Below are positions 1 to 3,683 of a stretch of 63,069 nt of DNA, piece by piece (the stretch's first letter is position 1; every line of letters starts with the position of its first letter). Under the pieces are notes generated by a model. That model was not told the DNA's origin. It saw nothing but the letters and a program-made list of their open reading frames with translations, and did not search any database. Position numbers and translations under genes: made by a program. The stretch is from Pseudomonadota bacterium (GTDB lineage: Bacteria; Pseudomonadota; Alphaproteobacteria; Puniceispirillales; Marisalimonadaceae): contig JAQBXK010000009.1 in the NCBI GenBank assembly GCA_027625145.1, positions 1 to 63,069 of the forward strand. The letters run 5' to 3'.

Positions 1-232
1 ATCATTTCAACAGTAACACCATCACAGTAAACAACTAATAAGAGTGGCAATGCCAATAGTTTTAGTTTGCTTAATTGCATTAAACCATAGAGCTGTGAAA
101 AGATATTTAAGGAAACGTTATGAGCACTAGCTTATAACGCAGTCCTTCTATTGCTTAAATTAAAAAACAACAAGCTAATTAAATATTGATAAATACACAC
201 ACTACAACATTAGTTTAAAGGATTAAAACTAC
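1..232. other. Gene-poor left edge of the island
   Basis: No convincing gene is seen here. A 26-codon reading frame at 50-130 (plus; hydrophobic start, basic end) is too short to call. A stem-loop lies at 116-139. The stretch before 233 is AT-rich and probably holds the promoter of the first small gene; a weak AAGGA-like ribosome binding site lies just upstream of 233. Confidence 0.4.
116..139. repeat. Imperfect inverted repeat (stem-loop)
   Basis: Arms CGTTATGAGC (116-125) and GCTTATAACG (130-139) pair over 10 positions with one G-U pair around a 4-base ACTA loop. No T-run follows on either strand, so it is not a standard terminator. It could be an operator, a recombinase site or an RNA structure ahead of the small-gene cluster. 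Seen directly; role unknown. Confidence 0.4.
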
Positions 233-658
233 ATGACATTAATTGAACAGATATTTAATGAATTAAATGAAAAGACAACAATAACTACCGATGAGTTTAG
301 TACTGATTGGTTAGGACAATGCAAAAGCTATTATACAAGTATTAAAAGCAGAAACATTCAAGCTAGCAATAACGCTTTAATAAACTTGCTTAATAAAATA
401 AATGAAGAAAAGAATTTAATTAATAATAAAAACCCCCACCCAATACTACAAAGTTTAGTAACACAATATAACATGTTGGAAGACAAGCTATGCAAAGAGA
501 TTGCAGAACGCAGTATTAAGCACAATATATGCAATTCAAGTGTAAAAAAACTAATATTAAAAGCAGTTAACAACGTATTATCACAAACAAACACAACCAC
601 AGTTGCACCCCTACCCTTTTTCTCAAATCGCAATCAATTACCAATAGTAATTTTATAA
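233..658 (+). CDS. Small hypothetical protein of the island (141 aa)
   Basis: The protein starts with a short helical part, then a D-W-L-G-x-C-K-S-Y-Y motif near residues 25-35, then a helix-rich middle and a polar threonine-rich tail. The W-L-G-x-S/C-x-S-Y-Y layout recalls small alphaproteobacterial proteins of unknown function (DUF6626-like). That match is from memory and not verified. It has no signal peptide or membrane segment. It is the first of three same-strand genes; only 6 bases separate it from the next, so they are probably co-transcribed. Function unknown; possibly a phage or integrative-element accessory protein. Confidence 0.6.
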   Translation: MTLIEQIFNELNEKTTITTDEFSTDWLGQCKSYYTSIKSRNIQASNNALINLLNKINEEKNLINNKNPHPILQSLVTQYNMLEDKLCKEIAERSIKHNICNSSVKKLILKAVNNVLSQTNTTTVAPLPFFSNRNQLPIVIL

Positions 659-664
659 AATAAA

Positions 665-1117
665 ATGGTTAAAAGTTTGCGACATTACATAGATATTGTT
701 GAAGGTGTAATACCAAACACTCTACTAAATCGTATTTCGCCATTTACTGCACAAAGCGAACAAAATGATGAATATTTAACACGAATAAAAGCACAAATAG
801 AAAATGAAGAAAGTGGATTGTTAACTGGATTTGGCAAATATGCAGAGTATAGCAATTTCAATAAAAACAGCAGTGGAGCAAACACTGAACGTAATGAACA
901 TTACATGCTGATAGATAAATTAAGAAAATATCAACAACAAGCTGAAAAAGAACGTAGAGATGAGATTATTAAACAGAAACAAAATAGACGTGCTGAATTA
1001 ATTGGATACGCAAAAGCTGGTGCTGAACAATATGACGATTATATGGATATAGCACAAACACATGTTGCTAAAATGGCATCTAAAAACATGGGAAAACAAT
1101 TAACCGCTAAAAATTAG
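665..1117 (+). CDS. Small hypothetical protein with duplicated C-terminal segment (150 aa)
   Basis: The N-terminus has a K-S-L-R-x-Y-I-x-I-V-E-G pattern (residues 3-14). Short proteins with this pattern are common in marine phages and metagenomes, but I cannot name a family with certainty. Residues 80-115 are charged and likely helical. Residues 121-141 (E-Q-Y-D-D-Y-M-D-I ... M-A-S-K-N) are encoded by an exact 64-bp repeat that recurs, in the same codon phase, at the end of the next gene. A strong terminator hairpin overlaps the end of the gene. Possibly a phage structural or accessory protein; function unknown. Confidence 0.6.
   Translation: MVKSLRHYIDIVEGVIPNTLLNRISPFTAQSEQNDEYLTRIKAQIENEESGLLTGFGKYAEYSNFNKNSSGANTERNEHYMLIDKLRKYQQQAEKERRDEIIKQKQNRRAELIGYAKAGAEQYDDYMDIAQTHVAKMASKNMGKQLTAKN
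1024..1087 (+). repeat. 64-bp perfect direct repeat, copy 1
   Basis: The sequence from 1024 to 1087 is identical to 1356-1419 (offset 332 bases). Flanking bases differ at both ends. Both copies lie in coding sequence and are read in the same codon phase, giving a shared segment E-Q-Y-D-D-Y-M-D-I-A-Q-T-H-V-A-K-M-A-S-K-N. Confidence 0.97.
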
Positions 1118-1147
1118 TCTCTGCACCATGACAATGCAGAGACTTTT
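1116..1147 (+). terminator. Rho-independent terminator after the 150-aa gene
   Basis: Perfect 10-bp stem AGTCTCTGCA (1116-1125) / TGCAGAGACT (1135-1144) with a 9-base loop, followed by TTTT. It begins at the stop codon of the 150-aa gene and lies between the two 64-bp repeats, so the downstream HTH gene probably depends on readthrough or its own promoter. Confidence 0.8.
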
Positions 1148-1170
1148 CCACTAGCAAAGAGGAACTTAAA

Positions 1171-1479
1171 ATGAATAGCATAAATATCAAGTTAACAAAA
1201 GAGCAATTTAAACAAATTAGAACAGAACTACAATACACTCAAAAAGAAATGTCTGAACTTCTTGGCATAACTATCAGAGCAATAAGTTATTATGAGTCTG
1301 GTCAAAGACCAGTGAACAAGACTGTAAGTATCTTAATGAAACGTATTTACGTTGATGAACAATATGACGATTATATGGATATAGCACAAACACATGTTGC
1401 TAAAATGGCATCTAAAAACGCTAGTAAACTTGAAAAGCAATCTACTGCTTTAAAGTTGATGGCAAAAAGAACGATTTAA
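1171..1479 (+). CDS. XRE/Cro-type helix-turn-helix protein with grafted tail (102 aa)
   Basis: Residues 5-60 form a typical XRE-type HTH domain: T-Q-K-E-M-S-E-L-L-G-I-T for the first helix and turn, then R-A-I-S-Y-Y-E-S-G-Q-R-P for the recognition part. From residue 62 the protein switches to the 21-residue segment shared with the preceding gene, encoded by the second copy of the 64-bp repeat. It ends with a basic tail. A clear AGAGGAA ribosome binding site precedes the ATG. Likely a DNA-binding regulator of the island (phage-repressor style); the graft looks like a recent recombination product. Target operator unknown. Confidence 0.75.
   Translation: MNSINIKLTKEQFKQIRTELQYTQKEMSELLGITIRAISYYESGQRPVNKTVSILMKRIYVDEQYDDYMDIAQTHVAKMASKNASKLEKQSTALKLMAKRTI
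1356..1419 (+). repeat. 64-bp perfect direct repeat, copy 2
   Basis: Identical to 1024-1087. It lies inside the HTH gene, replacing whatever C-terminus that gene originally had. Recombination between the copies would delete 332 bases and leave a single open frame. Confidence 0.97.
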
Positions 1480-1560
1480 TAGCATTTTAAGCGTTATACA
1501 TGAGTCGAATTACTTAAAAAGCTATGCAAGTTAGTTTAGTTTTTTTTTGAAGTGTTAAAT

Positions 1561-1575
1561 GTACAAACTTTGTAC
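1561..1575. repeat. Palindrome GTACAAA-C-TTTGTAC
   Basis: Perfect 7-bp inverted repeat with a single central base, in the gap between the convergent HTH and integrase genes, 13 bases past the integrase stop. It could be a dyad operator or a weak terminator element. A T-rich run (about 1541-1550) lies on its left side, as plus-strand sequence. Confidence 0.4.
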
Positions 1576-1588
1576 TTCTTAGTATCTG

Positions 1589-3079
1589 TTATTGTTTAGC
1601 AATGTTTTCTAAAACTTTGGCAACACTTTCAACATCTAATTCCCCTCTTTTCATCTGCCCTATTAATGTGCTTGCCATTTCAATGTCTTTAGCTTGCTCT
1701 GTATTTGCAGTATTTTTCCTCTTATTCAAATTTTTACCTATATTACTAATTTGTACATGCCCATAATGTTGTTCTATCATTTTCACACTTGTAGCAATAT
1801 TTTTTGCAACATTATAAACTTCAGCACCATCTTCTAATCGCATAGTAGCGTAACTATGTCTCAAACTGTATAAAGTACGATTTTTATTATCAGTTCCTTT
1901 TAATAATCCAATTTTACTAAGAAAAGTTTTAAAACTTACACTTACGTCGCATATTTTTTGATTTCCATTTTTGTCTTTTGTGTAAAACACTAAATCATTA
2001 TCGTCAGCAAACTCAGTTTCTTTTTTCCATTCAATTAGTTCATTATAAATGTGACTACTATGTGAGAGTGTAAAACGCTGTTTTCGTGTTTTACTCGTTT
2101 TCGCAGCTATGTTAAATTTGCCAGTGTCATTTTCTTCGTCATAATCAACGTCTTTCCATCTCAAATGTTTTGCTTCACCTACCCTTGCACCAGTACTTGC
2201 TAAAAACATAATATAAAGTCTCAAGTTTTTTCGTTGTCTAGCGTGTAATGGATTATCATTCTTGTTTTTAAATATTCCTCTTCCATTAACATAATTTCCT
2301 AAATTCAGTATTATCTTCTTCCACTCATCTTTAGTAAAATTGTCTCTTCTATTATTTCTATTAAGTTCTTCTTTGCTAAAAGCACCACTTGCTTTTATTT
2401 TTAATATCTTTTTTGTGTAACTTTGAGTGTCTCTATAACACCAAGCAAAAAACTGATTGATTATACTTGCTTCAGCTCTTGCCGTACCATAAGCAAATTT
2501 CTTTTTTATGTTATTACTAGATTGAGTTTTAGCATTTACTCTATTTTTGTTTGCTAATATCCTTTCTTTTCCTTCACCAGTTATATAAAAAGCATTACGC
2601 CAATCCCAATATCCATCTAATATGTCATCAGTTATGTCACCAATTTTCCTATCATTAAAATAACCTGCCATATATCTTTGCCAAGTATTTTTTATATACT
2701 TTTGGCGTTGTATTGTATGATTGTTTGAATTTTTTATACTGTCAAAAAACTTGTTTATAGCATTGCGAACATAAACAATATTGGTTTCCATATTGTTTTT
2801 ATGTTTATATTCATGCTCTCTGTAATCTTCCGTTGCTTTACGCTTTGCAAGTTCAAAAACTGTTTCTTTGGTACTTCGTCTTACATAGTCTTTTTTGCCT
2901 ACTAACTTTGCTCTGTAATGCCACACTTTATCATTTTTTAAATCTGCACGTTTATAAAGGAATAAATTACCTTCATAACCTTCAACTTCTTGTCTATCTA
3001 AATACTTTGTCATTGTAAAACTGTAACCATTAATTGCTTGATACGTGCAAACGTTAACACCTAACTTTAGCAATTCCAA
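1589..3079 (-). CDS. Tyrosine recombinase / phage-type integrase
   Basis: Site-specific recombinase that would insert or excise the island. Layout: an N-terminal arm-binding/SAM-like region to about residue 280, then a catalytic domain. Catalytic residues seen: R in S-T-G-A-R-V-G-E, the box II arginine in L-Y-S-L-R-H-S-Y-A-T (Tyr replaces the first His of H-x-x-R, as in many integrases of this type), and the nucleophilic Tyr in E-Q-H-Y-G-H-V. At 496 aa it is within the normal range for phage or element integrases. The first start is at 3079; an internal ATG at residue 23 (M-T-K-Y-L-D-R) is a plausible alternative. The frame is intact, so the enzyme may be active. It lies next to the rpsI terminator, suggesting that this end is an element boundary. 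Confidence 0.88.
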   Translation of the reverse strand: MELLKLGVNVCTYQAINGYSFTMTKYLDRQEVEGYEGNLFLYKRADLKNDKVWHYRAKLVGKKDYVRRSTKETVFELAKRKATEDYREHEYKHKNNMETNIVYVRNAINKFFDSIKNSNNHTIQRQKYIKNTWQRYMAGYFNDRKIGDITDDILDGYWDWRNAFYITGEGKERILANKNRVNAKTQSSNNIKKKFAYGTARAEASIINQFFAWCYRDTQSYTKKILKIKASGAFSKEELNRNNRRDNFTKDEWKKIILNLGNYVNGRGIFKNKNDNPLHARQRKNLRLYIMFLASTGARVGEAKHLRWKDVDYDEENDTGKFNIAAKTSKTRKQRFTLSHSSHIYNELIEWKKETEFADDNDLVFYTKDKNGNQKICDVSVSFKTFLSKIGLLKGTDNKNRTLYSLRHSYATMRLEDGAEVYNVAKNIATSVKMIEQHYGHVQISNIGKNLNKRKNTANTEQAKDIEMASTLIGQMKRGELDVESVAKVLENIAKQ

Positions 3080-3090
3080 CAGTTTTTTTT

Positions 3091-3113
3091 AAACGTGCAT
3101 CATACGTGCGTTT
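3091..3113. promoter_or_regulatory. Imperfect dyad with ACGTGC repeats upstream of integrase
   Basis: ACGTGC occurs three times within about 70 bases (near 3043, 3092 and 3104). The last two sit in an AAACG...CGTTT dyad. This short cluster upstream of the integrase start could be recombinase arm sites or a promoter operator. No function is shown. Confidence 0.3.
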
Positions 3114-3146
3114 ATAAAAAAAGCACCTATATTTCTATAAGTGCTT
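3113..3146 (-). terminator. Rho-independent terminator of rplM-rpsI
   Basis: On the minus strand AAGCACTTATA pairs with TATAGGTGCTT around a GAAA loop and is followed by a T-run. It starts about 40 bases after the rpsI stop. The stem carries one mismatch pair near its middle. It cleanly separates the ribosomal operon from the integrase gene. Confidence 0.8.
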
Positions 3147-3185
3147 GATATTGTTATATATTTTTTTATAAAGCGAAGTAAAAAA

Positions 3186-3683
3186 TTATCGTTTTGAAAA
3201 TTGAAAGCTTTTTCTAGCTTTCGCTCTTCCATATTTTTTACGCTCAACCACTCTAGAATCTCTTGTTAACATTCCAGCAACTTTTAAAGGTTTTCTTAAA
3301 TCTGGTTCAAACAAAGTTAATGCACGACTTAATCCGTGTCTAACAGCTCCAGCTTGGCCAGACAAGCCTCCGCCTTTAACAGTAGCCATTACATCAAATT
3401 GATCTTTTCTATCTGTAACTTCAAAAACAAAGTTTAATAGCATTTGCAAAACTGGTCTTGCAAAGTATGAATTCATATCTTTACCATTAATCTGCATTTT
3501 TCCAGATCCTCTTTTAACCCATACACGTGCTGTAGATTCTTTTCTTCTTCCAGTTGCATAAGATCTTCCAAGAGCATCTATTTTTGGCTCTTTCACAACA
3601 ACAGCACTTTCTTGCACTTCACTTAATTGTGACAAATCACTTAGATTATTAATTTCTTTAGTTTCAATATTTTCTTCAGCCAT
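3186..3683 (-). CDS. rpsI: 30S ribosomal protein S9
   Basis: Component of the small ribosomal subunit; its C-terminal tail contacts P-site tRNA. The conserved S9 core starts near residue 40 ([17 protein letters not shown]) and ends with the basic tail [11 protein letters not shown]. An acidic N-terminal extension of about 35 residues precedes the core, as in many alphaproteobacterial S9 proteins, giving 165 aa. The stop is followed by a strong terminator. It sits 10 bases downstream of rplM in the conserved L13-S9 operon. Confidence 0.97.

Follow-up and report, generated by a model that had tools for sequence, protein, structure and literature searches.

The window, as the whole 63,069-nucleotide stretch of DNA analysed here is called, holds at its left end part of a chromosomal island, in which two unrelated neighbouring genes, orf150 and a helix-turn-helix (HTH) regulator gene, carry identical copies of a 64-bp sequence (Table 1). 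Contig C6, whose left end it forms, is one of 83 in a 2.27-Mb draft genome with a contamination rated at 1.9%; about 1 kb separates the repeat from that contig end.

Table 1. Features at the left end of the window.
Feature	Position	Strand	Basis or remark
DUF6626 island protein	233..658	+	PF20331, E 1.4e-11
orf150, helical island protein without assigned function	665..1117	+	ORF; last ~9 codons (MGKQLTAKN) apparently from the insert
Left repeat copy	1024..1087	+	native to orf150; exact match to 1356-1419
Inserted phage segment, ~268 bp	1088..1355	+	contains the leader hairpin, a ribosome binding site and codons 1-62 of the HTH gene
Stem-loop of the leader (CATGAC loop conserved)	1116..1142	+	covariation; fold energy
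HTH (XRE/HTH_3) regulator, 102 aa	1171..1479	+	residues 1-62 phage-derived; remainder corresponds to the duplicated orf150 end
Right repeat copy	1356..1419	+	in-frame fusion to HTH; exact match to 1024-1087
Presumed original 3′ terminus of orf150 (ASKLEKQSTALKLMAKRTI stop); at present it closes the HTH ORF	1420..1479	+	in-frame join to 160 aa without 1088-1419
Island tyrosine recombinase (integrase)	1589..3079	-	Phage_integrase, E 1.2e-12; phrog_1, E 8.7e-30
Probable attachment site (CAAAACGATAA) at the 3′ end of rpsI	3186..3200	-	broken rpsI-hom adjacency

In the relative from the same genus and in relatives from the same family, hom follows rpsI; here, rpsI ends in CAAAACGATAA within the window and hom lies near the end of another contig (C10), preceded by CAAAACGTTAA. 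Since the two genes are apart in this genome and adjacent in its relatives, the genes to the left of rpsI belong to an integrative island of the tyrosine-recombinase type, which is lodged in rpsI at its 3′ end and separates it from hom. Similar 11-bp sequences, CAAAACG(A/T)TAA, and repeats resembling GCACGTTT occur near both presumed island ends (positions 1-3190 of the window and the hom locus on C10), the remainder of the island falling outside these contigs. A second rpsI, 49% identical, is found on a 4.2-kb contig of the same draft (C59, positions 670-1095), which is probably a contamination.

The two repeat copies agree in 64 of 64 bases by direct sequence comparison, and their identity breaks off sharply at either end of the block (a wider block of 67 bases contains one mismatch). 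They are spaced by 332 bases and represent the only direct repeat of at least 30 bp within the window; in 30 equally long sequences from a second-order Markov model, the longest exact repeats measure 16-19 bp. Both copies share one codon phase, (1024-665) mod 3 = (1356-1171) mod 3 = 2, and encode the peptide EQYDDYMDIAQTHVAKMASKN. When the flanks are joined without 1088-1419 (665-1087 plus 1420-1479), the resulting frame is open for 160 codons and ends with ASKLEKQSTALKLMAKRTI. An earlier note on this DNA had reported the 64-bp identity, the common phase in two unrelated frames, the 332-base spacing, the in-phase fusion upon deletion of 1088-1419 and an HTH domain within the unit, and in all of these it is borne out, the HTH ORF matching Pfam HTH_3 with an E-value of 1.9e-8. 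According to the list of ORFs, the HTH gene is the only one located between the repeats, and the unit contains no gene for a transposase or recombinase. The identity of the copies implies that the event from which they arose is either recent, or that gene conversion has held them alike.

Close relatives of the HTH protein occur in marine viral contigs, at 72-84% identity (81-84% for the nearest phage copies), and the phage signature TKEQFK..R..LQYTQ.., of the XRE type, is present in the window copy as well. Within HTVC010P-like marine podoviruses, the HTH gene forms a module with a hairpin directly upstream; 27 such module sequences were found, 25 of them complete. In all 25, the HTH protein ends at the equivalent of residue 64, which is where the repeat begins in the window; the phage proteins close with IYITEK, IYITER, IYQDEK or IYQNGK, and the window protein reads IYVDE and then continues into the repeat. 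At 102 residues it thus falls outside the range of 59-64 residues used for the module, the complete phage copies having either 59 or 64, and its 38-residue extension, with the tail EQYDDYMDIAQTH, is absent from all 25 of them and present in the window copy only. Seeming matches to this tail at two phage loci (L014 and L018) were rejected, as the matching stretch crosses a stop codon into another gene. Through the fusion to the repeat the HTH gene has lost its stop codon and its frame has nevertheless stayed open, for which the chance is about one in three. Between the window HTH and the phage copies dN/dS is about 0.1, a value that mostly reflects selection in the phages and is no proof of HTH function in the island.

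The hairpin upstream of the HTH gene folds with an energy of -14.6 kcal/mol (z -5.2) and is present in all 27 module sequences. Across 12 distinct sequences, its core stem of eight pairs is completely (100%) formed, and 15 cells show a change on both sides; a covariation as high is reached by none of 500 shuffles, and slid versions of the stem score far lower. The window stem itself carries a G-C to U-A exchange, in which both sides are changed and pairing is kept. The CATGAC loop (CGTGAC in one copy) and the following CTAGCAAAG are conserved, although for copies other than those retrieved by protein search this conservation is partly built in, as the search pattern included these letters. The combination of the hairpin and CTAGCAAAG upstream of an HTH gene of the 59-64-residue class was recorded for the window (1116-1159) and for six further loci (L003, L006, L009, L070, L071 and L083). 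Where the earlier note had seen a terminator, the hairpin is thus real; its role as a terminator is doubtful, since the stem is followed by CTTTTCC in the window, but in most phage copies by GTTCAC or CTAACC, without a run of T. The hairpin is taken here as a putative structured leader of the HTH mRNA. Neither it nor the module has a match in Rfam. The analysis has brought to light a conserved, covarying leader hairpin in marine phages.

Homology to the phages begins at position 1099, in the final codons of orf150, and extends to about 1352, with about 87% identity at the DNA level; to two of the phage contigs (L004 and L006) it is 86-88% over 1099-1349. With these contigs the window has the leader and the HTH gene in common, and nothing else of the island; conversely, neither the integrase nor DUF6626 was found in the viral contigs. 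The nearest phage sequences diverge by about 13% in their DNA, and the donor phage, with the sequence to the left of ATTAACCGCTAA, was not found among the viral contigs; for this reason the left junction is uncertain, and the attribution of 1088-1098 to phage DNA is inferred. The module-bearing phages have terminase large subunits (TerL) with 50-51% identity to those of the Pelagibacter phages HTVC034P and HTVC010P (for L009, 51% to HTVC034P over 99% of the length), and by the relatedness of this protein to HTVC010P or HTVC034P the source phages can be assigned to the HTVC010P-type podoviruses. In every contig with a marker gene in view, the module occupies the same location, between TerS/TerL on its upstream side and RusA or PAPS reductase on its downstream side; these neighbours are all encoded on the opposite strand. 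The window copy lies outside this setting, in an island beside an integrase gene and rpsI, and no phage TerL was found in this genome. The constancy of the module's location in the phages indicates that the direction of transfer was from phage to island. Comparison of the sequences thereby establishes that the insert stems from a phage and roughly where it begins and ends, that the flank is duplicated, and that the HTH tail is confined to the window copy. Around the module in the phages (loci L002-L016), the small ORFs on either side vary from phage to phage with recurring spacers that resemble ribosome binding sites, and the module stays constant; these surroundings have the appearance of a gene-exchange hotspot.

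Of the two genes that carry the repeat, orf150 is the older. Its single-sequence structure model is helical (pLDDT 68), and no relatives were found in Pfam, PHROGs, NCBIfam, the PDB, phage records, viral contigs or genome contigs; among 136 genomes of the order, one yields a weak match of 42 residues. Degenerate DNA patterns for the shared peptide likewise gave no match in viral or genome contigs. The open join of its flanks suggests that the ancestral orf150 was a gene of 160 codons, corresponding to the fused form. For the present C-terminus, MGKQLTAKN, at least part of the coding DNA comes from the phage leader, given that in the phages the stretch matching the last five residues and the stop codon coincides with the end of the upstream gene or lies past it. 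Homology between the tails that follow the two repeat copies (GKQLTA and EKQSTA) was considered and rejected: the best local alignment score of their DNA is reached by 77 of 500 shuffles, and the first tail is at least partly phage-derived.

With the segment from about 1088 to 1355 assigned to phage DNA, the 64-bp repeat becomes a flanking duplication of orf150. The locus is thus probably the result of an insertion, in which a piece of about 268 bp from an HTVC010P-like phage entered the 3′ part of a 160-codon island gene and duplicated 64 bp of it. The earlier note had offered the footprint of an insertion as one of its two readings, and this is the one to which the data point: the module is a phage unit with defined ends, the repeats flank it in the manner of a target duplication, and the tail exists on the window copy only. 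Its picture of one peptide tail grafted onto two genes stands as to the shared peptide; the peptide is native to orf150 and appears to have been grafted onto the phage regulator alone.

Most likely, a single illegitimate event of replication template switching is responsible. Copying would have proceeded along orf150 to 1087, switched to phage DNA for about 268 nucleotides, comprising the leader hairpin and the small HTH gene minus its stop codon, and then returned to orf150 at 1024, 64 nucleotides upstream, at a microhomology of about 4 nucleotides (TGAA). At this junction the endings of the phage genes are GATGAR-AA(A/G)-TAR or ACTGAG-AAA-TAG, against GATGAACAATAT in the window and GCTGAACAATAT in orf150. 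In consequence, orf150 would have kept its first 141 codons and received a new end from the phage leader, and the HTH protein would have gained a helical extension of 38 residues from the duplicate of orf150. The proposed mechanism has left no enzyme-specific mark, and break repair with phage DNA as filler would give an identical result; no Ku gene was found in this genome, which counts against non-homologous end joining.

The same final sequence would also be reached in two steps, if orf150 first had its end exchanged for phage DNA and the product later recombined illegitimately with an unaltered copy of the island, such that the HTH gene was joined 64 bp upstream of the first break. This requires two independent breakpoints within one short stretch; it is therefore less parsimonious, and on balance unlikely. 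An assembly artefact, by which two strains, or island and phage, were joined via the 64 bp they had in common, has to be weighed for a repeat 1 kb from a contig end in a draft of 83 contigs. Yet the joins between orf150 and the insert and between the insert and the repeat share at most a few nucleotides with phage sequence, so that an assembler could have built them only from reads spanning them, and contamination is low by its rating; we regard an artefact as improbable.

The other reading of the earlier note was a genetic switch, in which recombination between the repeats would excise the HTH gene and restore the 160-residue protein. The geometry permits such an excision, as it does after any insertion with a duplicated flank, and an integrase gene is adjacent; but this integrase apparently has its own site in rpsI, and the repeat resembles the coding sequence of orf150 rather than a recombination site. 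The fused version, for which the earlier note had proposed to search related genomes, was found neither in the 136 genomes of the order nor in the contig collections, and beyond the weak match no relative of orf150 was found there by which a switch could be supported; regulated excision is thus very improbable. Its compactness, defined ends and presence in a new genome might suggest that the hairpin-HTH module is itself a small mobile element, one that duplicates long stretches of its target. Hardly any credence at all can be given to this, as the module encodes no recombinase, keeps to one genomic place wherever a phage contig includes a marker gene, and has no such flanking repeat in the phage stretches read.

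An insertion of phage DNA with a duplicated flank, which remains the preferred reading, resembles several known systems without coinciding with any of them. As in moron-like accretion by illegitimate recombination, a small gene from a phage has, together with its leader, become an extra unit in or beside an unrelated gene; here, however, it was acquired by a chromosomal island and not by another phage, it has lost its stop codon and is fused to a host gene, a 64-bp duplication flanks it, and the hairpin is at most a putative terminator. With MMBIR-like template-switch or break-repair insertions it has in common a foreign segment between short copies of the target and microhomology at a junction, but in this case the mechanism is a proposed one, the donor is a phage, and the duplication measures 64 bp. 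From the XRE/HTH_3 regulators of HTVC010P-like podoviruses, with which it has the HTH domain, the leader hairpin and 86-88% DNA identity to the nearest in common, the window copy differs by its place in a bacterial island and its 38-residue extension. Insertion sequences also lie between direct repeats of target DNA; the window unit differs from them by having no transposase gene and by the much greater length of its duplication, since target duplications of insertion sequences are usually far shorter than 64 bp. In the titles and opening parts of abstracts on the HTVC010P group and on template-switch or moron-type insertions, a case of this kind is not described.

In an AlphaFold2 model, the last helix of the HTH domain and the tail form one continuous helix from residue 50 to 101 (mean pLDDT 87.6); the tail could thus lengthen the terminal helix of the domain, and may thereby alter its dimerisation. 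That the island uses the captured hairpin-HTH unit, stabilised by the grafted helix, to detect infection by HTVC010P-like phages or to interfere with it, and that the hairpin represents a new class of structured leader controlling a small phage regulator, is a speculation with a poor chance of being right. The locus offers a clear example of stray phage DNA in a bacterial island that has apparently turned two proteins into chimeras at the same time, and a sequence-level trace suggesting entry of HTVC010P-like phages, or of their DNA, into this bacterial lineage.

In seven genomes of the order, DUF6626 genes are also located near tyrosine integrase genes, at sites different from this one. Six such islands were recorded (L134, L135, L137, L138, L139 and L140), several of them beside a guaA-like gene and with varied cargo; that of the last comprises an apparent restriction-modification system.
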